From an uncultured Cellulophaga sp. (lineage in GTDB: Bacteria > Bacteroidota > Bacteroidia > Flavobacteriales > Flavobacteriaceae): a stretch of 64,000 nucleotides of DNA. Below the pieces are notes generated by a model. The model saw nothing but the letters and a program-made list of their open reading frames with translations. It ran no database searches and was not told where the DNA came from. Positions 36,208-55,292 of the stretch are shown here, piece after piece (the stretch's first letter is position 1; the number at the start of each line of letters is the position of its first letter). Position numbers and translations under genes: made by a program. The DNA is taken from positions 372,001-436,000 of the forward strand of contig CANLOV010000001.1 of the NCBI GenBank assembly GCA_947492955.1. The letters run 5' to 3'.

Positions 36208-36389
36208 TGCTTAGTGCGGAGGCAAGGAAACTTTTCGTTTCCGTCTGCGCACGAAGCTAAAGCTTATTGTTTAGTTTTATTTTTTCTTTTCCAAAGCTAA
36301 ATTCGTAAGATTTAACGATATTATAAATCTACATAAACCTTTCGGTTTTGCCCTAAAGCCCGCATTACGTTCAGGTTTTGTTGTCATTA
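36208..36389. repeat. Cassette spacer CS2 (class B, attC-like)
   Basis: The inner arms GCTTAGTGCGG (36209-36219) and CCGCATTACGT (36360-36370) pair over most of their length. A hairpin GGAAACTTTTCGTTTCC lies within. The right core GTTGTCATTA (36380-36389) is the exact complement of TAATGACAAC at 36856-36865 across the next cassette. It shares its body with CS6, CS7 and CS17. Confidence 0.75.
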
Positions 36390-36772
36390 GTTTTTTCTGC
36401 TTCATCATAGAAATCCCCCGATTCCCATTTTCTTTTTCCAAGATATTTTCCGCAATAATTATAGCGTTCAATATATTCGTTTTCTGGTTTTTTATTATAC
36501 CTGAAAACCCATATTTCTCCATCAACCAGTTTTATTCTCCTAAAGCGAATGTCTTTAGAAGAATCAAGTGATTGTATAAATGCAGATTTTCGTTCGAATA
36601 TAATTTCTCCGCTAGAATCCAATACTTTGTCTATTAAAATGACCTTTTTATGTCCCAAGTCCCAGAACAAAAACTTACGCTTTTTCTGAATCTGTTCCGT
36701 TTTTAGAGTAACATTTTCGATTCCACAACTCTCTTTTTTAATTGTTTTTTCCGCTTTCGATTTGGAATACAT
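36371..36772 (-). CDS. Hypothetical protein, probable secreted; start uncertain (cassette gene)
   Basis: The ATG-initiated ORF has 133 residues and matches no family I know. Upstream in the same frame, with no stop, the codons read IEIKSIFTVLFVLLFSFTTW, a convincing signal peptide. It has no ATG, GTG or TTG; the frame offers only ATT (36836-36838) or ATA (36842-36844). Either a rare start is used, the start codon has been lost, or there is a sequence error. The last codons run through core GTTGTCATTA before the TGA. Confidence 0.6.
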   Translation of the reverse strand: MYSKSKAEKTIKKESCGIENVTLKTEQIQKKRKFLFWDLGHKKVILIDKVLDSSGEIIFERKSAFIQSLDSSKDIRFRRIKLVDGEIWVFRYNKKPENEYIERYNYCGKYLGKRKWESGDFYDEAEKTNDNKT

Positions 36773-36855
36773 TAGCCCGTTCGTCCAAGTTGTGAACGAG
36801 AATAGAAGAACAAATAAAACTGTAAAAATTGATTTAATTTCTATTGAGTTAAAAT

Positions 36856-36950
36856 TAATGACAACGCAGCGCTATGTGGAGTCCGCGAATTTTTATGGAA
36901 ATATAGGAAAAACTTTTTCGTTTTTTTACCTCAGTTCTTTGTTGTGATTA
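36856..36950. repeat. Cassette spacer CS3 (class A, short)
   Basis: It is only 95 bp and consists of the class A head ACAACGCAGCGCTATGTGGA...GAATTTTTATGGAAATATAGG plus the AAAACTTTTTCG run. The left core TAATGACAAC matches CS2's right end. The right core GTTGTGATTA (36941-36950) pairs 9 of 10 with TAACCACAAC at 37501-37510 across the next gene. Confidence 0.75.
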
Positions 36951-38507: not shown

Positions 38508-39731
38508 TTATCCGAACATTTTATCCCAAAGATTTTTTTTCTTTTTGTCCTTTGAACGTTCTATTACAATTCTTGTAACGTCAGCTACTCTATCTTTAAT
38601 TTCTAGAATCCATTCGTTATGCCCTTCAATATCAGATGAATTCTCTTCTTGATATTTTGATATTTCAGATAGTTCACTCTCAAGTAATCTAAGTTGCTCT
38701 TGCAAATTATTTTGTGTGTAATTTTTAAAATATTTTATTTGCTCAAAATCCTTTTTTTCAACCAGTTCATCAAGAATATCACTTGTATACCTATTCCAAT
38801 CGTTAAGATAATCGTGCTTTATTAATACATAACTAGCATATGCAATACATAGTCTTTTAAAATTTGGTTTTTCTATATGAGTTAGTACGAAATTTGAATT
38901 CGAAGCAACCTTAAATTTTTTAAAATATTCGGTTTCTGCTATTTCATACGATTGAAATGAAGAAATATTTGAAGATTTGTTTTCATCTACTTCTATTATG
39001 AAGAAGGGATTTTTATTTGGACTTATACCAAGCCAATCTTTTCTGATTTTCACGTGGTTTTTTATAAAAACTTCATTCAACTTACTATGGACATTATATT
39101 TATCATCAATCTTTATGAGTTCCTTTTGTTCACTTAACGTTAAATTTCCGTTGTTAGAAAGTAAAAGATGAAATTTTTGAAAATCAGGATGCTCTTGACC
39201 TTCTTTGATTTTAAGGTTATATAAAATATCTATGATTTCTACCATAGAAGCCCATTTATGGCTTTTAACTGTTCTAACCTGAATCTCTATTATTTTATGT
39301 TTATTTATAGGGCTTTCAATGTAAATGTGATAGCCTCTATAACCATCTTCCTTGTTTTCGGCTAAATAATCGTTAACGCCAGTTACCACAAAATTACTTT
39401 TCAAATTTGTAATTACTTTTATCAATGAATCCTCGCTGTAAAGTAGAATTCTACAGCCAGCAATGTCACCCATATTACCCAAAGACATAGTTGGTTGTCT
39501 TTTTATTTTAGATAATATTGACTCTATTCGCTTAATTCTAAATGAAGTGATGCTATCTTTTCTTGCATTTTTCGCTATATCAGATATTTTTTCAAAGACA
39601 GCAGAAATGTCCTCTTTAAAAGATGTTCGATATTCTTGTAAATTTTCTAATAATTCTAAGGAAGGCTTTTCACCCAGTTTAATTTTACCTCTAAGTGCTT
39701 TTCCTAATTTATTTACTTGTGATTTCGTCAT
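38508..39731 (-). CDS. RelA/SpoT nucleotidyltransferase-domain protein (cassette gene)
   Basis: In this 407-residue protein residues about 40-165 form a RelA/SpoT synthetase-like domain: SFRIKRIESILSKIKR, the metal-site region MGDIAGCRILL, DGYRGYHIYI and EIQVRTVKSHKWASMVE. The hydrolase (HD) domain, TGS and ACT are absent. A C-terminal region of about 230 residues ends in a lysine-rich tail and is not a known ppGpp-synthase regulatory domain. It could be a small alarmone synthetase or a toxic member of the family (toxSAS/CapRel-like); no antitoxin ORF is adjacent. Confidence 0.8.
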   Translation of the reverse strand: MTKSQVNKLGKALRGKIKLGEKPSLELLENLQEYRTSFKEDISAVFEKISDIAKNARKDSITSFRIKRIESILSKIKRQPTMSLGNMGDIAGCRILLYSEDSLIKVITNLKSNFVVTGVNDYLAENKEDGYRGYHIYIESPINKHKIIEIQVRTVKSHKWASMVEIIDILYNLKIKEGQEHPDFQKFHLLLSNNGNLTLSEQKELIKIDDKYNVHSKLNEVFIKNHVKIRKDWLGISPNKNPFFIIEVDENKSSNISSFQSYEIAETEYFKKFKVASNSNFVLTHIEKPNFKRLCIAYASYVLIKHDYLNDWNRYTSDILDELVEKKDFEQIKYFKNYTQNNLQEQLRLLESELSEISKYQEENSSDIEGHNEWILEIKDRVADVTRIVIERSKDKKKKNLWDKMFG

Positions 39732-40536: not shown

Positions 40537-40770
40537 TTGCAGGTAACGCAGCGCTATGTGGAGTCCGCGAATTTTTATGGAAATATAGGAAAAAACTTTT
40601 TTGTTTTTTTTATGTATTGGGAATAAAAATTGGCGACCAGATTACATATAACGACATGTAGCCTATTGGGTAGACGTAGGAGAATGCAATTCATCGGTCT
40701 AGTGTATGATTTCGTTGCGTGTTTAAGCACTAAAGTTAGCAAAGAATTATACACGTTCTTGTGTTTAGTA
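40537..40770. repeat. Cassette spacer CS8 (class A mosaic)
   Basis: The class A head GGTAACGCAGCGCTATGTGG is followed by TTGGCGACCAGATTACATAT. The right half of the 86-bp palindrome follows (GTAGCCTATTGGGTAGACGT...AATGCAATTCATCG, about 40657-40695), then a GTTAGCAAAG...TTATACACG end like CS12. The left half of the palindrome is missing. Confidence 0.7.
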
Positions 40771-42100: not shown

Positions 42101-42288
42101 ATTAATGGCAACGCAGCGCAATGGGTAGCCTGTAAATTTTATGGAAATATAGGAAAAAACTTTTTCGTTTTTTTTATGTGTTGGGAATAAAAATTGGCGA
42201 CCAGATTACATATAGCGACACTATAAATATACACAGACCTTTCGGTTTAGCCTAAACCCCTAATTACGTTTAGGTTTTGTTGTACAAA
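42101..42288. repeat. Cassette spacer CS9 (class A plus class C end)
   Basis: It starts ATTAATGGCAACGCAGCGCA and carries the GGAAATATAGGAAAAAACTT and GGCGACCAGATTACATATAG blocks. The end ATAAATATACACAGACCTTT...TAATTACGTTTAGG is shared with CS14. The right core GTTGTACAAA (42279-42288) pairs with TTTGTACAAT at 42882-42891 (9 of 10). Confidence 0.75.
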
Positions 42289-42291
42289 GTT

Positions 42292-45330: not shown

Positions 45331-45649
45331 TGTACCTAACACAACGCTATATATTATCTGCGAATTCTTATGGAAATATAGGGAAAAACTTTTTTGCTTT
45401 TTTATTGTGAATAAAAAATAGCAACTTGTTGTGATGTATTATTTTTCTATGTTAAGCATAGTATGGAGTAAGAGGTCTATTAAACTACGGCCATATGTAA
45501 TCTGACATAGTGCTGCGATGAATTGCATTTTGTTTTTATCTTTTCTGTTTCAAAACCCAAATCAAAAGATTTGGCGGTGTTTGCAAACACGCCCAAGCCT
45601 TTAAATATAACACTTTATGCCCTATTTGCTATAGCCATTGTTACCACAC
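45331..45649. repeat. Cassette spacer CS11 (class A mosaic)
   Basis: It starts TGTACCTAACACAACGCTAT with a divergent class A head. The left half of the 86-bp palindrome (GCTGCGATGAATTGCATTTT) is joined to a CAAATCAAAAGATTTGGCGG hairpin, and the CCCTATTTGCTATA arm is shared with CS4. The right core GTTACCACAC (45640-45649) overlaps the next stop codon and exactly complements 47150-47159. Confidence 0.75.
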
Positions 45650-47146
45650 GTAATTTTCGTTTATCTCTTTCTCCAATTGCATTATTTGAGAAGGGTAACT
45701 GGCTTCGCCATTGACAATCTTTCCATTTTCGTCCACCAATAGATATCTGGGATAAGCGAATCGTCCATTATTACCGAATTCGTTGATTATATCTTCCAGT
45801 AATTTTTCATTGGTTACTATATGATAACCTTCCAAATCATAGGATTTTATCATTTCATGCCAAATTTTCTCTTTGCTGTTTTTGCCCTCACAGATGTACA
45901 ACAATGCCATGTTCTTGGCTTTTAATAATCGCCCCAAACTTTTTTTATGCTCAAATTCTTTTTTGCAGGGGGCACACCAAGTCGCCCAAATGTCCACAAA
46001 AACTTTCTTTCCGTTGAACTTTGAAATTAAGTCTTTGAAAGTGTCGATTTCCCCGTAGTTCTTGACAAATTGAATTTTTTCGTTTGTCTTCGCCTTTTTC
46101 AAATTTTTATGAAAAGTAACGATAGGCTTTATAGAAGTCTCTAAATGTTCATTGTAGGGACTTTGTGGATATTCCTTACTGAAGTTTTCATAAGTTTCAA
46201 TTATTTTTTTGGAATTGTCATTTGTCTGCCAACTTTCATAATAAATGTAGGAAGCCAAATAATACTCAAGTTCCTCTCCGGCAAGATACTTTTTGGCTTC
46301 ATCGATATTGTATTGGTAAATATCCCCTGTTTCATATTTTTTTTTCAATGCCTCGGCATCGAAGCCTTCCGATGAAAGTTGCGCAAACCTTATAAAATTA
46401 CTTACCAAGGCATAGAACCATGGAGAACGATCATTATCATTTCCGATGATATTTGAAACTTTGAGTTTTTTGTTCCAGAATTTTTTTAAACTATCTATTT
46501 TCAATGATTCTTTTTCATTGAGATATTTTTGCAAAAGCATACTGGCAACACCCGCTTCAAGAGCAGAATAATAGACTTTTCTATCTAAAACTGCCAGTTC
46601 ATGAAAATCTTTGGAAATCTCCTTTTTTTTCAATAATTCATCGAATTTGGAAATCTCAATTTCCCTTAAAGAATTTATTTTGGAAGATATTTCTTCGGGG
46701 ATTGAATCATTGTGAAATTCATTCAATCCTATCATAAAAAATTCGGGTGCGGGCAGGGTATTGTAAAAATTTTGGCCGTTTCCGTTAGGTGAATCTATAT
46801 AAAATGATTTTTGTCCTTTATCGAGTTCAATGTCAATACCATAAGTTTGTCCAGGTTCGGTCAACAGAATGCCGCCTATTTTTCCTGGGACATATAAGGT
46901 TGTGAATGATGGTTTATCCGTGTCGATTTTTATTTGAAACTTACCGATTGAGTCAGTGATTGTGGATTTTTTATCTCCATAAAACCATTTTCCATCAATC
47001 GGAACCGTGTATTCGATTTTTTCAGGACTGGCAAGGTCTACTATTTGTCCGTTTATTGTTATTTCTTTCTCTACTTTTTTAGAACAACTAATAAAACCAA
47101 GTATTAGGATGATCGGGATAATATTTCTGGCTCTCATTTTTGTCAT
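45641..47146 (-). CDS. TlpA-like thioredoxin-fold lipoprotein (cassette gene)
   Basis: The 501-residue protein has a lipoprotein signal peptide ending GFISC and a long N-terminal region with a beta-rich start typical of Bacteroidota TlpA-associated DUF4369-like domains. The C-terminal thioredoxin domain carries FVDIWATWCAPCKKEF, with CAPC as redox motif. It likely reduces or oxidises envelope proteins. Flanking cores GTTACCACAC and GTGTGGTAAC are perfect complements. Confidence 0.85.
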   Translation of the reverse strand: MTKMRARNIIPIILILGFISCSKKVEKEITINGQIVDLASPEKIEYTVPIDGKWFYGDKKSTITDSIGKFQIKIDTDKPSFTTLYVPGKIGGILLTEPGQTYGIDIELDKGQKSFYIDSPNGNGQNFYNTLPAPEFFMIGLNEFHNDSIPEEISSKINSLREIEISKFDELLKKKEISKDFHELAVLDRKVYYSALEAGVASMLLQKYLNEKESLKIDSLKKFWNKKLKVSNIIGNDNDRSPWFYALVSNFIRFAQLSSEGFDAEALKKKYETGDIYQYNIDEAKKYLAGEELEYYLASYIYYESWQTNDNSKKIIETYENFSKEYPQSPYNEHLETSIKPIVTFHKNLKKAKTNEKIQFVKNYGEIDTFKDLISKFNGKKVFVDIWATWCAPCKKEFEHKKSLGRLLKAKNMALLYICEGKNSKEKIWHEMIKSYDLEGYHIVTNEKLLEDIINEFGNNGRFAYPRYLLVDENGKIVNGEASYPSQIMQLEKEINENYVW

Positions 47147-47149
47147 TAT

Positions 47150-47482
47150 GTGTGGTAACGCAGCGCTATGTGGAGTCCGCGAATTTTTATAGTAATATAA
47201 GAAAAAAAATTTTTTGTTTTTTTGTTGTATTGGGAATAATAATTGGCGACCAGATTACATATAGCGCTGCGATGAATTGCATTTTCCCAATGGGCGAGAA
47301 TCGAGAGGAACGAGATGTAGCCTATTGGGTCGACGTAGGAGAATGCAATTCATCGTTGTTGTATAAGATTAGTTGCGTGATTTAAGAGCTAAAGTTAGCA
47401 AATAAATCACAGATAGAAAGTCCGCGAGGACTTTCGTAAATAGGTTAGAACTAGCAATTAATTTTATACTGTGTTGCCAGTA
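47150..47482. repeat. Cassette spacer CS12 (class A with full 86-bp palindrome)
   Basis: The left core is GTGTGGTAAC, followed by the class A head. The TIR-like pair CGCAGCGCTATGT...ACATATAGCGCTGCG brackets about 110 bp. Then come the 86-bp palindrome (47270-47355) and the GAAAGTCCGCGAGGACTTTC hairpin. The right core GTTGCCAGTA (47473-47482) exactly complements TACTGGCAAC at 48361-48370. Confidence 0.8.
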
Positions 47483-47486
47483 GTTT

Positions 47487-48263
47487 TTATTCAAATTCAA
47501 TAATTTCTTTTCCTTCAGTTCTGATTTGAAACAACTTTCGTAATTTAAAGTTTTCTGAATTTTCAATATAGAATCTTAAATTCTCAAAATTTATAGTAGT
47601 TTTTCCATTTTGTTCATTAATCAAAGTTTTTGCGTATTGTTTTCTTTTCTCTAGAAATCCACTTTCTTTTTTGTCGATAAACCATAGAGTTCTTAATTCG
47701 TCTTTATCTATTGCAATTGAAAAGTCTCTAAATGTTAATTCTTTTGAGTTTTGATTTATATTGCTCAAATCAAATAATTCTCCAGAAGAGAAAATAACAT
47801 TTGTATTTTTATTAGAAATCCAGTCTTTTAAATGAATTCCTTGTTGGAAATTGATTTGGTCATTTAGATGCAAATGAACAAGTTCTTGATATTTGAACTT
47901 GTTTTTGAGAAAGTACAAGTCGATGAATTTTTTTTTGCCATTATCGTATAATTCATATTTTAATTTCCCTTTTTGATTAATTGTTTTTTCAAATCCACAA
48001 TTTCTATTTCCGTAGTTTATATTCAAATAAATTTTAGCTTTCTTGAATTTTACGATTTCTGCTTTTTTAAAATCTTTTGATGTATTTAAACTACCAATAA
48101 TCTTATTATTATCAGAATTTTTTAAAACAATGTTTAAATTTCCATATTTGGTTTTGTCATCCTTTTTTTCTAGGTTAATATAGATATCAACAGGAACGAG
48201 TTTCCTTGAACATCCAAAAATCAGACATAAACAAAATAGAAGATTTATTTTTCTTAAAGTCAT
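47487..48263 (-). CDS. Hypothetical lipoprotein (cassette gene)
   Basis: The 258-residue protein has a lipoprotein signal peptide ending IFGC near residue 18, then a beta-rich domain with paired Lys/Asn segments. No family recognised. It is bounded by perfectly complementary 10-bp cores. Confidence 0.7.
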   Translation of the reverse strand: MTLRKINLLFCLCLIFGCSRKLVPVDIYINLEKKDDKTKYGNLNIVLKNSDNNKIIGSLNTSKDFKKAEIVKFKKAKIYLNINYGNRNCGFEKTINQKGKLKYELYDNGKKKFIDLYFLKNKFKYQELVHLHLNDQINFQQGIHLKDWISNKNTNVIFSSGELFDLSNINQNSKELTFRDFSIAIDKDELRTLWFIDKKESGFLEKRKQYAKTLINEQNGKTTINFENLRFYIENSENFKLRKLFQIRTEGKEIIEFE

Positions 48264-48360
48264 TTTTTATAATTTAAGCCTAATATAATTCAGATGATTT
48301 ATTTATGAAAGTTAGAATGAGTGTAAGCTAGTTTTCATTGAGTTAACGAGTTTCTCAAAT

Positions 48361-48780
48361 TACTGGCAACGCAGCGCTATGTGGAGTCCGCGAATTTTTA
48401 TGGAAATATAGGAAAAAACTTTTTTGTTTTTTTCATGTATTAGGAATAAAAATTGGCGACCAGATTACATATAGGGACATGATGTGTTGCGTTATTTTCT
48501 TCCGTTAAGGATCGTGTTTGGCAAGAGTTCTCTTATTCTATGGCCATATGTAATCTGACATAGCGCTGCGATGAATTGCATTTTCCCAATGGGCGAGAAT
48601 CGAGAGGAACGAGATGTAGCCTATTGGGTCGACGTAGGAGAATGCAATTCATCGGTTTGTATATGATTTCGTAGCGGGATTTCAGAAAAATTTCGAACTA
48701 TAGAAATCAAGCTTTATTAAAAGTAACAGTTTTCCATTTAGTAGGAGAACAGCTATGAATTATAGGCCTTGTTGTAAAAC
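48361..48780. repeat. Cassette spacer CS13 (largest, class A with full palindrome)
   Basis: At about 420 bp this is the longest spacer. It contains the class A head, GGCGACCAGATTACATATAG and its inverted partner CATATGTAATCTGACATAGC, and the 86-bp palindrome at 48569-48654, identical to that in CS12. The right core GTTGTAAAAC (48771-48780) pairs with TTTTACAAC at 49296-49304. Confidence 0.78.
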
Positions 48781-48785
48781 GTTTT

Positions 48786-49286
48786 TTAATTATTAAAAAC
48801 TTTGGATATCTTTTTCAACTCTTCTGAATTAAGAGATGAAGTTTCCTTTAATTTGGATAAGAAAGTTTCAACATGTTTTTCTTTTGATGGGTTTCCAATG
48901 TTTCTACCTTTTAAATTAAATGAATCAGTTAGAAGATTCCCATCAGGGTCAAATATTAACCAAAAAGGTATTCCAGCTCTTTTACCTTTGTATTTTTCCA
49001 AGATTTCAATAGCTCCAGGGTTTTCCAGATGCTTATTGAATTTATATTCTTTTATAATAAGTTCTCTTATCACATAACTTCGTTCAAATAATTCTGAAAC
49101 CGATTCATTTTGCATCCGTTCTGTCATAATGTGGCAGGGTTTACACCATGAAGCCGAAAACTTAATAAAGATGTTTTTACTTTCTTTTTTTCCTTCTTCG
49201 AACGCATTATTAAGCACAGTTACAGCACTTTCCTGTGCATAAGATTCACACGTAATTAATAGAATTAAGATTAGAAATTTACGCAT
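48786..49286 (-). CDS. Secreted thioredoxin-fold protein (cassette gene)
   Basis: The ORF track starts at 49340, but the ATG at 49286 begins MRKFLILILLITCESYA, a clean signal peptide, so I use it. The mature protein has FIKFSASWCKPCHIMTERM with the CKPC redox motif and a DsbD-gamma/thioredoxin_7-like fold. It probably acts in the periplasm. The upstream 18 codons overlap spacer CS14 and are not believable coding sequence. Confidence 0.85.
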   Translation of the reverse strand: MRKFLILILLITCESYAQESAVTVLNNAFEEGKKESKNIFIKFSASWCKPCHIMTERMQNESVSELFERSYVIRELIIKEYKFNKHLENPGAIEILEKYKGKRAGIPFWLIFDPDGNLLTDSFNLKGRNIGNPSKEKHVETFLSKLKETSSLNSEELKKISKVFNN

Positions 49287-49295
49287 TTGAAATGT

Positions 49296-49494
49296 TTTTA
49301 CAACGGTCTTGTGTATGAAACGTAGCGTGCAAAAAGACACTAACTTTTCGGATTAACACAGAGCCGAATTTTTATATTTTGTTTTTAAGTTCTCTCTTTT
49401 AAAAGCCAAATTAAAAATTTGGCGGACATTATAAAAATACACAAACCTTTCGGTTAAGCCCTAAAGTCCGCATTACGTTTAGGTGTTGTTGTAA
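49296..49494. repeat. Cassette spacer CS14 (class C)
   Basis: It starts TTTTACAACGGTCTTGTGTA, with the GAAACGTAGCGTG, TTTTCGGATTAA and CCAAATTAAAAATTTGG elements shared with CS20, and ends CCGCATTACGTTTAGG. The right core GTTGTAA (49488-49494) complements TTACAAC at 50058-50064 across the next gene. Confidence 0.75.
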
Positions 49495-50057: not shown

Positions 50058-50242
50058 TTACAACTTGTTTATATGTGTAACTTTATTCCACTTATAAGCC
50101 CATTACGTATGGCTATGAGGAAGTTTAGTGTTTTGTCTACACTATAAAAATACACAAGATTTTATTTTAAATCCTATAAATTTGGTAATTAGGGTATATT
50201 GCTTTTATGAGATAGCAATGTTTATAGTAGTAATTTAATTTA
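50058..50242. repeat. Cassette spacer CS15 (class D)
   Basis: It starts TTACAACTTGTTTATATGTG and continues TTCCACTTATAAGCCCATTA, CACAAGATTTTATTTTAAAT and GCAATGTTTATAGTAGTAAT. It is nearly the same as CS21 along its length, and the likeness continues into the next stop codon (TTTAATTTA). The right end has no GTTGT core, unlike the other spacers. Confidence 0.7.
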
Positions 50243-50710
50243 CTCTTTTATATGGGCTTTTTGTATTAATTCACTCTTTATATTTATAACTTCCATTTTT
50301 TTAGCTAAACAGAATTTAACGTCTGCTCCATAATTTTTTAAGTCTGAATGTAATATTTCTTGGTCATTCCTTAATTTCCATATCATATATATTATTCCAC
50401 TTTTTTCAAATCTGTAACCAATAAAATCGTCCGTAAAAGTTGATCCACTAATTAAATATTCAAATCGATTTGAGTAATTTTCAAAGTATTTAAATAACTC
50501 CGATTTGGTTAATTTTTTAAATTCAAATTCAATGGTTTTTGCATTAATTAATTCATCGATTATGGAAATCAAATATCCTTGGAAATATATAAAATCTTGG
50601 TTTGTTCCATAAAACTCATTTTGAATCCAGAGTTTTCCGTAACCCATTTTTGAGTTAGCTTTAGATTGAGTGAATTCAATCGCAAAAGATTTTTTATTTC
50701 CGATTATCAT
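50240..50710 (-). CDS. Hypothetical cytosolic protein (cassette gene)
   Basis: The 156-residue protein begins MIIGNKKSFAIEFTQSKANSKMGYGKLWIQNEFYG, a pattern shared by an Imm42-like group of immunity proteins. The similarity is by eye and weak. No signal peptide. Its stop codon lies in the conserved tail of CS15. Confidence 0.6.
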   Translation of the reverse strand: MIIGNKKSFAIEFTQSKANSKMGYGKLWIQNEFYGTNQDFIYFQGYLISIIDELINAKTIEFEFKKLTKSELFKYFENYSNRFEYLISGSTFTDDFIGYRFEKSGIIYMIWKLRNDQEILHSDLKNYGADVKFCLAKKMEVINIKSELIQKAHIKE

Positions 50711-53977: not shown

Positions 53978-54166
53978 CGTTCAGTATAAGAAACGTAGGG
54001 CAGATGATAAGCACTATCGTTTCGGTTTATTACTTAGCTAAATATAAATATTTTGCTTTTATATTTTATTTAAATGTCAAATTTTATATTTAGCGTGCTT
54101 AGTTAATATACACAGAACTTTCAGTTTAGCATAAACACCTTATGTTTTTTATAAATTGTTGTCATT
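53971..54166. repeat. Cassette spacer CS19
   Basis: It starts AACACAACGTTCAGTATAAG. The hairpin body is AT-rich (TAGCTAAATATAAATATTTT...AAATTTTATATTTAGC). The right core GTTGTCATT (54158-54166) exactly complements AATGACAAC at 55093-55101 across gene 54174. Confidence 0.72.
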
Positions 54167-54173
54167 TCGTTTT

Positions 54174-55067
54174 TTATCTATTTGATTGAGCGATACTTTT
54201 CCATTTTTCACCATCAAATAAAGAAATATCAGATGCGCCTATTGACCAAAGACCGCTGGGGCCAGTGAAAAGATGCATACTAGAACGAAATTCTTTATCA
54301 AGTGCTTTGAAAAGCGTTAAGTTATCGTCTTTTAACTGATATATCCCTGAATTAGTTGAAAAATATATAGCATCACCATAACTGCATACAGACCATATAT
54401 CGTCCGTAAATTTGTCATTTTTTATTAATTCCCAAGTGTCTCCTCTTCCTTTAATTATTGTTCCAAGCTGACCACCAATATAAACAGTGCTGTCGTTTAC
54501 ATCTCCGTCATTCAAAATACGATTGGTCGGACTTATTACCTTGTGCCATTCCCCGTTTTTATTTGTCCAGATAACCCCTCTCCAACCAAAAGCATAGAGT
54601 TCTTGCTGATTAAAACCTGTTATGTTTTCAAAACATTTAGGTTCTTTCACACCAATAGTACTTTTCATTTCATCATTACTAATTTCACTCCACTCAAGTC
54701 CAGAAAATTTAAATAAAAATCGGTTTGTTCCTCCAGCATACATCACGTTATCAATTGACTTAGAGAATCGAAATTTCGTTTTTGTCTGTTTTTCTTTATA
54801 AATATGGATATTGGAATGGCCATCTTTTTTTATGTCCAATACTTTTCCCATTGGACTAATTGAAAAAAGACCTGTTCCGTCAGTATTACTAGAAACTGCA
54901 GAAGGAGGCCAAGGAAGATGTCCGGGTTGTGACCATATCCCTTCTGGCGTGCGAAATAGAATTAAAGTATGAGGTGTTGTAGAAAATTCACTATTCTCAA
55001 CAGCAAAAATAAGTGTGTTGTCTTTTAGTTCCACACCTTTCACAAAGTTATATTTATCTAAATTCAT
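54174..55067 (-). CDS. Beta-propeller-like hypothetical protein (cassette gene)
   Basis: The 297-residue protein is built of repeated strands with the pattern ..FGWRGVIWTNKNGEWHKV.., ..YIGGQLGTIIKGRGDTWELI.. and ..FSTNSGIYQLKDDNL.., about five or six blades. It has no signal peptide, so it may be a cytosolic binding scaffold. No catalytic motif visible. Perfect 9-bp complementary cores flank it. Confidence 0.72.
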   Translation of the reverse strand: MNLDKYNFVKGVELKDNTLIFAVENSEFSTTPHTLILFRTPEGIWSQPGHLPWPPSAVSSNTDGTGLFSISPMGKVLDIKKDGHSNIHIYKEKQTKTKFRFSKSIDNVMYAGGTNRFLFKFSGLEWSEISNDEMKSTIGVKEPKCFENITGFNQQELYAFGWRGVIWTNKNGEWHKVISPTNRILNDGDVNDSTVYIGGQLGTIIKGRGDTWELIKNDKFTDDIWSVCSYGDAIYFSTNSGIYQLKDDNLTLFKALDKEFRSSMHLFTGPSGLWSIGASDISLFDGEKWKSIAQSNR

Positions 55068-55092
55068 AATATTTTAAGCACAGTTGATAATG

Positions 55093-55292
55093 AATGACAA
55101 CGGTTTGTGTATGAAACGTAGCGTGTAAAAAGACACTAAAGTTTCGGATTAAACACAAAGCCGAATTTTTATATTTTGTTTTTAACTTATCAATCTTAAA
55201 AGCCAAATTAAAAATTTGGCGGACTTCATAAATATACAGAAACCTTTCGGTTTAGCCTTTATTAGCTATGTTTTATACACCGTGTTATGTGC
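55093..55292. repeat. Cassette spacer CS20 (class C)
   Basis: It starts AATGACAACGGTTTGTGTAT and shares nearly all its length with CS14, including the CCAAATTAAAAATTTGGCGG hairpin. The right core GTTATGTGC (55284-55292) exactly complements GCACATAAC at 55948-55956. Confidence 0.78.

Follow-up and report, generated by a model that had tools for sequence, protein, structure and literature searches.

Background

Amplified cassettes that carry no gene have been described in Vibrio. In Vibrio vulnificus, families of non-coding cassettes account for 45 copies in CMCP6 and 34 in YJ016, and a selfish or a regulatory role has already been proposed for them (PMC1382264). As to the Bacteroidetes proper, a survey made with IntegronFinder 2.0 reported a complete integron only for Salinibacter ruber (PMC9024848). 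No description of cassette arrays in Flavobacteriaceae was found in the literature searched. Because of this absence, and because the survey lists S. ruber only, the Flavobacteriaceae host system considered here may be new, while amplified gene-less cassettes as such are already known from Vibrio.

The DNA analyzed here, referred to as the window, is a stretch of 64,000 nucleotides from the genome of an uncultured Cellulophaga sp. It contains two copies of an 86-bp palindrome. This palindrome is probably the body of a minimal gene-less cassette of the integron type, hereafter the 'unit', which would behave as a selfish hitchhiker on the recombinase of the array. Like the ORF-less cassettes of Vibrio, the unit has its own attC-like site, is present in tens of copies inside arrays and is restricted to one lineage. 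It differs from them by its 84-bp body, which is itself a near-perfect hairpin, by its GAT/ATC core, and by the location of its copies in several arrays of one Flavobacteriaceae genome, for which the recombinase type is not IntI.

The arrays share with IntI/attC systems a tandem series of single-ORF cassettes that all point the same way, complementary GTTR../..YAAC arms with a G^TT crossover, hairpin attC-like sites and an exchange of cassettes between species. In contrast to IntI systems, the recombinase linked to the arrays lacks the I2 insert, scores below the TIGR02249 cut-off, has an N-terminal extension of about 105 aa and is co-directional with the array, and the arms are 8 to 15 nt long. 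As in CALIN, neither the array of the window nor any of the genome's other arrays that were examined adjoins an integrase or other recombinase; unlike in CALIN, the equivalent arrays of relatives have a recombinase directly upstream, which IntI-specific searches would miss. Finally, the unit resembles MITEs, REPINs and the palindromic elements of the IS200/IS605 type in being short, palindromic, non-coding, multicopy and species-specific, but it occurs at cassette junctions only, its orientation is set by the array, and no transposase-type ends or target duplication were identified.

The repeated hairpin belongs to a 283-bp unit

The two copies of the palindrome, at positions 47270-47355 and 48569-48654 (plus strand), are identical over all 86 bp, as a preliminary description of the window had stated. 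The hairpin reported there was recovered as well: the predicted fold of the 86-mer consists of 15 consecutive outer pairs and an inner CCAAT/ATTGG pairing, with a folding energy of -21.5 kcal/mol compared to a mean of -7.8 for dinucleotide shuffles (z = -6.0). Each copy is made of a start arm, a body and an end arm; it corresponds to a cassette body of 84 bp, its 17-nt arms (GATGAATTGCATTCTCC/GGAAAATGCAATTCATC) included, flanked by one base per side. The repeat, however, extends beyond the 86 bp first reported. At the 48569 copy it is a full-length unit of 283 bp (48371-48653, minus strand), or 287 bp when the junction bases shared with the neighbors are counted, in which the 84-bp body (48653-48570) is followed by an attC-like body (48569-48371). 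These limits were drawn from the cassette chain, the junctions and an alignment of 25 copies. At the 47270 copy, the left part is shortened and the unit measures 195 bp (47160-47354, minus strand), due to a deletion of 88 bp in the alignment. The attC-like body thus measures 199 bp in the full form, 111 bp at the 47270 copy and about 33 bp in two short forms.

Read on the minus strand, the unit starts directly past the upstream attC-like site (..C^GATGAATTGCATT), continues with a non-coding middle of about 50 bp and the complementary arm AATGCAATTCATC, and closes with the attC-like hairpin that belongs to it (GCAGCGCTATGT..ACATAGCGCTGC); its end is the start of the next ORF cassette (^GTTRNN). 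The start and end arms are complementary (R'/R'') over 17 nt, with a matching score of 14; a variant that has a single mismatch scores 11. The attC-like site is predicted from its sequence to fold on either strand, with z-scores of -6.2 and -7.3. The unit is devoid of ORFs longer than 45 codons. Its core triplets are GAT/ATC, compared to GTT/AAC in the neighboring and other well-supported cassettes. IntI1 tolerates GNT at secondary sites (PMC4618277), which may offer, by analogy, a parallel for the GAT core.

The cassette that precedes the unit keeps an intact attC of about 117 to 183 bp. In all copies for which both ends could be resolved, a GTT follows directly, the orientation is the same, and the unit runs from the C of the upstream attC to the GTT of the next cassette, that is, between crossovers that are common to its neighbors. 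Given the intact attC before it and the GTT start directly after it, we conclude that the presumed mobile unit is an independent gene-less cassette of 283 bp, and that the initial proposal of a hairpin of 86 bp nested within a spacer does not hold.

Cassette arrays surrounding the unit

The array ORFs found at about 33-56 kb of the window, on the minus strand, belong to integron-type cassettes. ORF cassettes start with C^GTTRNN.. and end with ..NNYAAC, and these ends form cassette-specific complementary arms of 8 to 15 nt. Downstream of the 195-bp unit lies a cassette (45640-47159) with a redoxin/thioredoxin-like ORF (45641-47146; arms GTTACCACAC/GTGTGGTAAC), and downstream of the 283-bp unit one (47473-48370) whose ORF (47487-48263) has no Pfam match (arms GTTGCCAGTA/TACTGGCAAC). 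The cassette at 48771-49304 is thioredoxin-like (arms GTTGTAAAA/TTTTACAAC), and the 283-bp unit follows directly on its intact attC-like site of 117 bp (48654-48770). Two others are found at 36380-36865 (arms GTTGTCATTA/TAATGACAAC) and 54158-55101 (arms GTTGTCATT/AATGACAAC); all five are on the minus strand. Several older cassettes of the window have decayed arms and are missed by the arm rule. Among the cassette ORFs, one (38508-39731) has a RelA/SpoT domain, and may encode a small alarmone synthetase or a toxin-like protein; another (50240-50710) has a weak match to the immunity protein Imm42, below the Pfam cut-off.

Several other arrays of the genome were read with a chain finder that applies this rule of complementary ends. 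Neighboring pairs were linked in 14 cases out of 14 at two loci (L032 and L044), and in 11 out of 11 at a third (L039), so that these arrays are nearly unbroken. The lengths of the attC-like bodies cluster at 115 to 121, 172 to 187 and 198 to 200 bp, the last group consisting almost entirely of the unit's own site. Cassette boundaries are corroborated by comparison between species: for four cassettes common to other species, homology begins 1 to 5 nt from the predicted crossover. One of the four, an ORF cassette with 97% identity to its counterpart in Aquimarina sp. AU58, has both limits of homology at most 3 nt away from the predicted crossovers; it is preceded by a different attC in Aquimarina, and by the 283-bp unit here.

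Copy number, flanks and spread of the unit

A genome-wide BLAST gave matches at 41 places in the genome, of which 27 were at least 85 bp long at 95% identity or more. Seven of the 41 matches run into contig ends, which means that the repeat limits the assembly. Among 25 full-length copies, the mean pairwise identity is 95.5% overall, 97.4% for the 86-mer and 94.7% for the remainder. Their 100-bp flanks, in comparison, have 34 to 37% ungapped identity and comprise 25 different sequences on the left and 24 on the right. These figures agree with the recent spread of a discrete module, one of the two explanations offered in the preliminary description, although the module is larger than the hairpin to which it was applied. 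Nor is the 86-mer confined to a fixed place in one spacer class (class A of that description) at the same divergence as the flanks. All copies are in one orientation at the crossover. The genome-wide search yielded none beyond the cassette arrays, which disfavors the free-roaming MITE that had been envisaged.

The unit was absent from 39 relatives (17 congeners and 22 further genomes), and its arm pattern from other GTDB genome contigs and from viral contigs. This absence from all other genomes searched indicates a recent expansion at the species level. Among the loci examined, BLAST with the two flanks joined detected no empty site. Tandem copies were not seen, in an assembly that breaks at the unit, and no convincing case of a similar short gene-less cassette was encountered in the arrays of relatives.

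Partial copies are also present, and the two half-copies previously noted were found again: 40650-40696 contains the right half only (CS8) and 45516-45532 the left arm only (CS11). The first is part of a 152-bp deletion derivative (40545-40696, minus strand), in which the attC-like site is reduced to its gene-proximal half and joined to the right half of the 86-mer. The same junction recurs in another 152-bp derivative at C1:102559-102710 (L041:5559-5710), so that a form devoid of one arm exists at two places with different flanks. We assume that this reflects a recurrent deletion; otherwise, it would be evidence against a mobility dependent on the arms. The CS11 copy is a diverged remnant (45338-45532, minus strand), with an attC-like site and a single arm, joined to another spacer. 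Together with the 195-bp unit (the 199-bp form), the CS8 and CS11 half-copies look like products of deletions across palindromes. Hybrid spacers, in which the 199-bp attC-like site is represented by its left half, joined to other spacers, were observed at 36863-36950, 42110-42290 and 45338-45620 of the window. They suggest frequent deletion or recombination between palindromes.

A putative recombinase of the arrays

Relatives carry such arrays directly downstream of a tyrosine recombinase of 375 to 380 aa, in the same direction. Linkage was counted over the best 80 named loci, which are almost all from Flavobacteriales and include the genera Aquimarina, Maribacter, Arenibacter, Winogradskyella and Gillisia, among others. 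Linked cassette pairs were downstream on the same strand in 86 cases and upstream in 2; none was on the opposite strand, whether downstream or upstream. Recombinases without the I2 insert and resembling XerA lie directly upstream of arrays at L098:9599-10729, L101:9243-10370, L099, L102, L106 and many of the loci L113-L192. In a complete congeneric genome (L195, L196, L099; G014:C1:22001-81500), a long array with about 40 linked pairs in the stretches fetched follows the recombinase.

On the basis of sequence, the recombinase is the putative enzyme of the arrays. It just passes model NF040815 (XerA, 'site-specific tyrosine recombinase/integron integrase') and scores too low for TIGR02249, the IntI model. 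The KGxKDR-like and HxLRHS motifs are separated by 64 to 66 residues in 75 of 75 array recombinases, compared to 107 in VchIntIA, which makes them some 42 residues shorter at the place of the I2 insert of VchIntIA. No canonical IntI above the TIGR02249 cut-off was detected in the window's genome or in the 39 relatives, and no relatives of the recombinase in viral contigs. In the window's genome, the search for a close ortholog of the array recombinase was negative, the best match being 46% identical. Over its catalytic part, this level of identity is reached by a 359-aa tyrosine recombinase (G000:C11:105757-106829, L045), which has an IntI-resembling C-terminus (VKSPLDSL), lies 212 bp from a contig end and does not adjoin an array. 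Since the usual searches require IntI-specific models, the XerA-like recombinases without I2 and their arrays across marine Flavobacteriaceae may form an overlooked integron lineage.

Mechanism and alternative explanations

Fixed junctions and orientation, restriction to arrays and unrelated flanks argue for site-specific recombination where cassettes meet, rather than gene conversion or free transposition. It is therefore very improbable that the hairpin is a static part of one spacer class homogenized by gene conversion, the other explanation of the preliminary description. For Vibrio, it has been proposed that attC sites become homogenized (PMC1382264), and the attC-like type with left end AACGCAGCGCTATGTGGAGTCC also exists without the 86-mer; nevertheless, the unit starts and stops at exactly the same base in almost all intact copies, namely at the cassette crossover, the attC sites upstream are of several types and intact, and flanks are unrelated. 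We also regard as unlikely a non-autonomous transposable element, either MITE-like or derived from IS1111-attC or IS200/IS605, that would target the 3' edge of attC-like sites without the cassette recombinase. Such an element could account for two abutting hairpins, a species-restricted amplification, a fixed target position and orientation, and the GAT core of the unit as opposed to the GTT of cassettes. Yet no copy was seen elsewhere than in arrays although the shared left AACG is only 4 bp, the unit ends follow the arm rule of cassettes, no target-site duplication was identified at the junctions (only a CG shared by both), and no autonomous element with the ends of the unit was seen. Elements of the IS200/IS605 type have a guide-like spacer between hairpin and cleavage point; here, the hairpins abut the junctions with no such spacer between. 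Remnants of Y1 transposases (PF01797) do exist in the genome, but the three strongest matches (G000:C17:20629-20982, C17:30354-30683 and C6:200808-201086, two of them on the contig that holds a dense array) are interrupted by stop codons, and two further matches are partial. A derivative of a group II intron, of IS110/IS1111 or of IS200/IS605, considered for its anatomy, appears unlikely, as no sequence supported it and the Y1_Tnp remnants were not associated with the unit ends.

Alternatively, the unit may have multiplied as a regulatory cassette, a promoter or a structured RNA that aids the expression of downstream cassettes. This appears doubtful, even though the unit lies directly upstream of many cassette genes, since it is absent from congeners with comparable arrays. 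Gene-less cassettes of Vibrio often have promoter activity (PMC11014356); here, the match to the Bacteroidota -33/-7 promoter consensus was indistinguishable from that of shuffled sequence on either strand, in a type of prediction that is unreliable, and a promoter is held to be unlikely. A structured RNA was discarded: both strands of the unit fold strongly, but an Rfam search of the window's array region gave no credible match and nothing above chance.

As the unit carries no gene, selfish hitchhiking on the cassette recombinase best explains its multiplication, and would be the simplest cause. The unit would be excised as a circle through recombination at C^G, which would join the ..GCAGCGCTGC-side end to GATGAATTGC.., so that the circle junction would read ..CATAGCGCTGC then GATGAATTGCATT. 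The circle would then re-insert at a different cassette junction, with its orientation always preserved. Direct support for the gene-less cassette comes from the anatomy of the unit, its precise junctions, the number of copies, their confinement to arrays and to the species, the lack of an ORF, and the cassette boundaries that agree between species. By inference, the intermediate would be a circle, the enzyme the recombinase of the arrays, and the unit selfish rather than regulatory. The GAT/ATC core, the one-armed 152-bp derivative at two places, the lack of tandem copies in an assembly that breaks at the unit, and the lack of a close copy of the recombinase count against it.

Significance for marine Flavobacteriaceae

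In a broader view, to which we give about even chances, cassette systems of marine Flavobacteriaceae are run by an XerA-type recombinase without I2, and the 283-bp unit with its GAT core is a selfish parasite of these systems, little more than a recombination site. If so, the breaks of the assembly at the unit repeats would be explained, and the mini-cassette would provide a natural minimal substrate for the study of recombinase recognition, including the need for a GTT core. Cassette systems would then breed parasites that carry a recombination site only. Cassette capture would not be confined to canonical IntI integrons, and a recombinase family widespread in marine Flavobacteriaceae would run arrays of its own.
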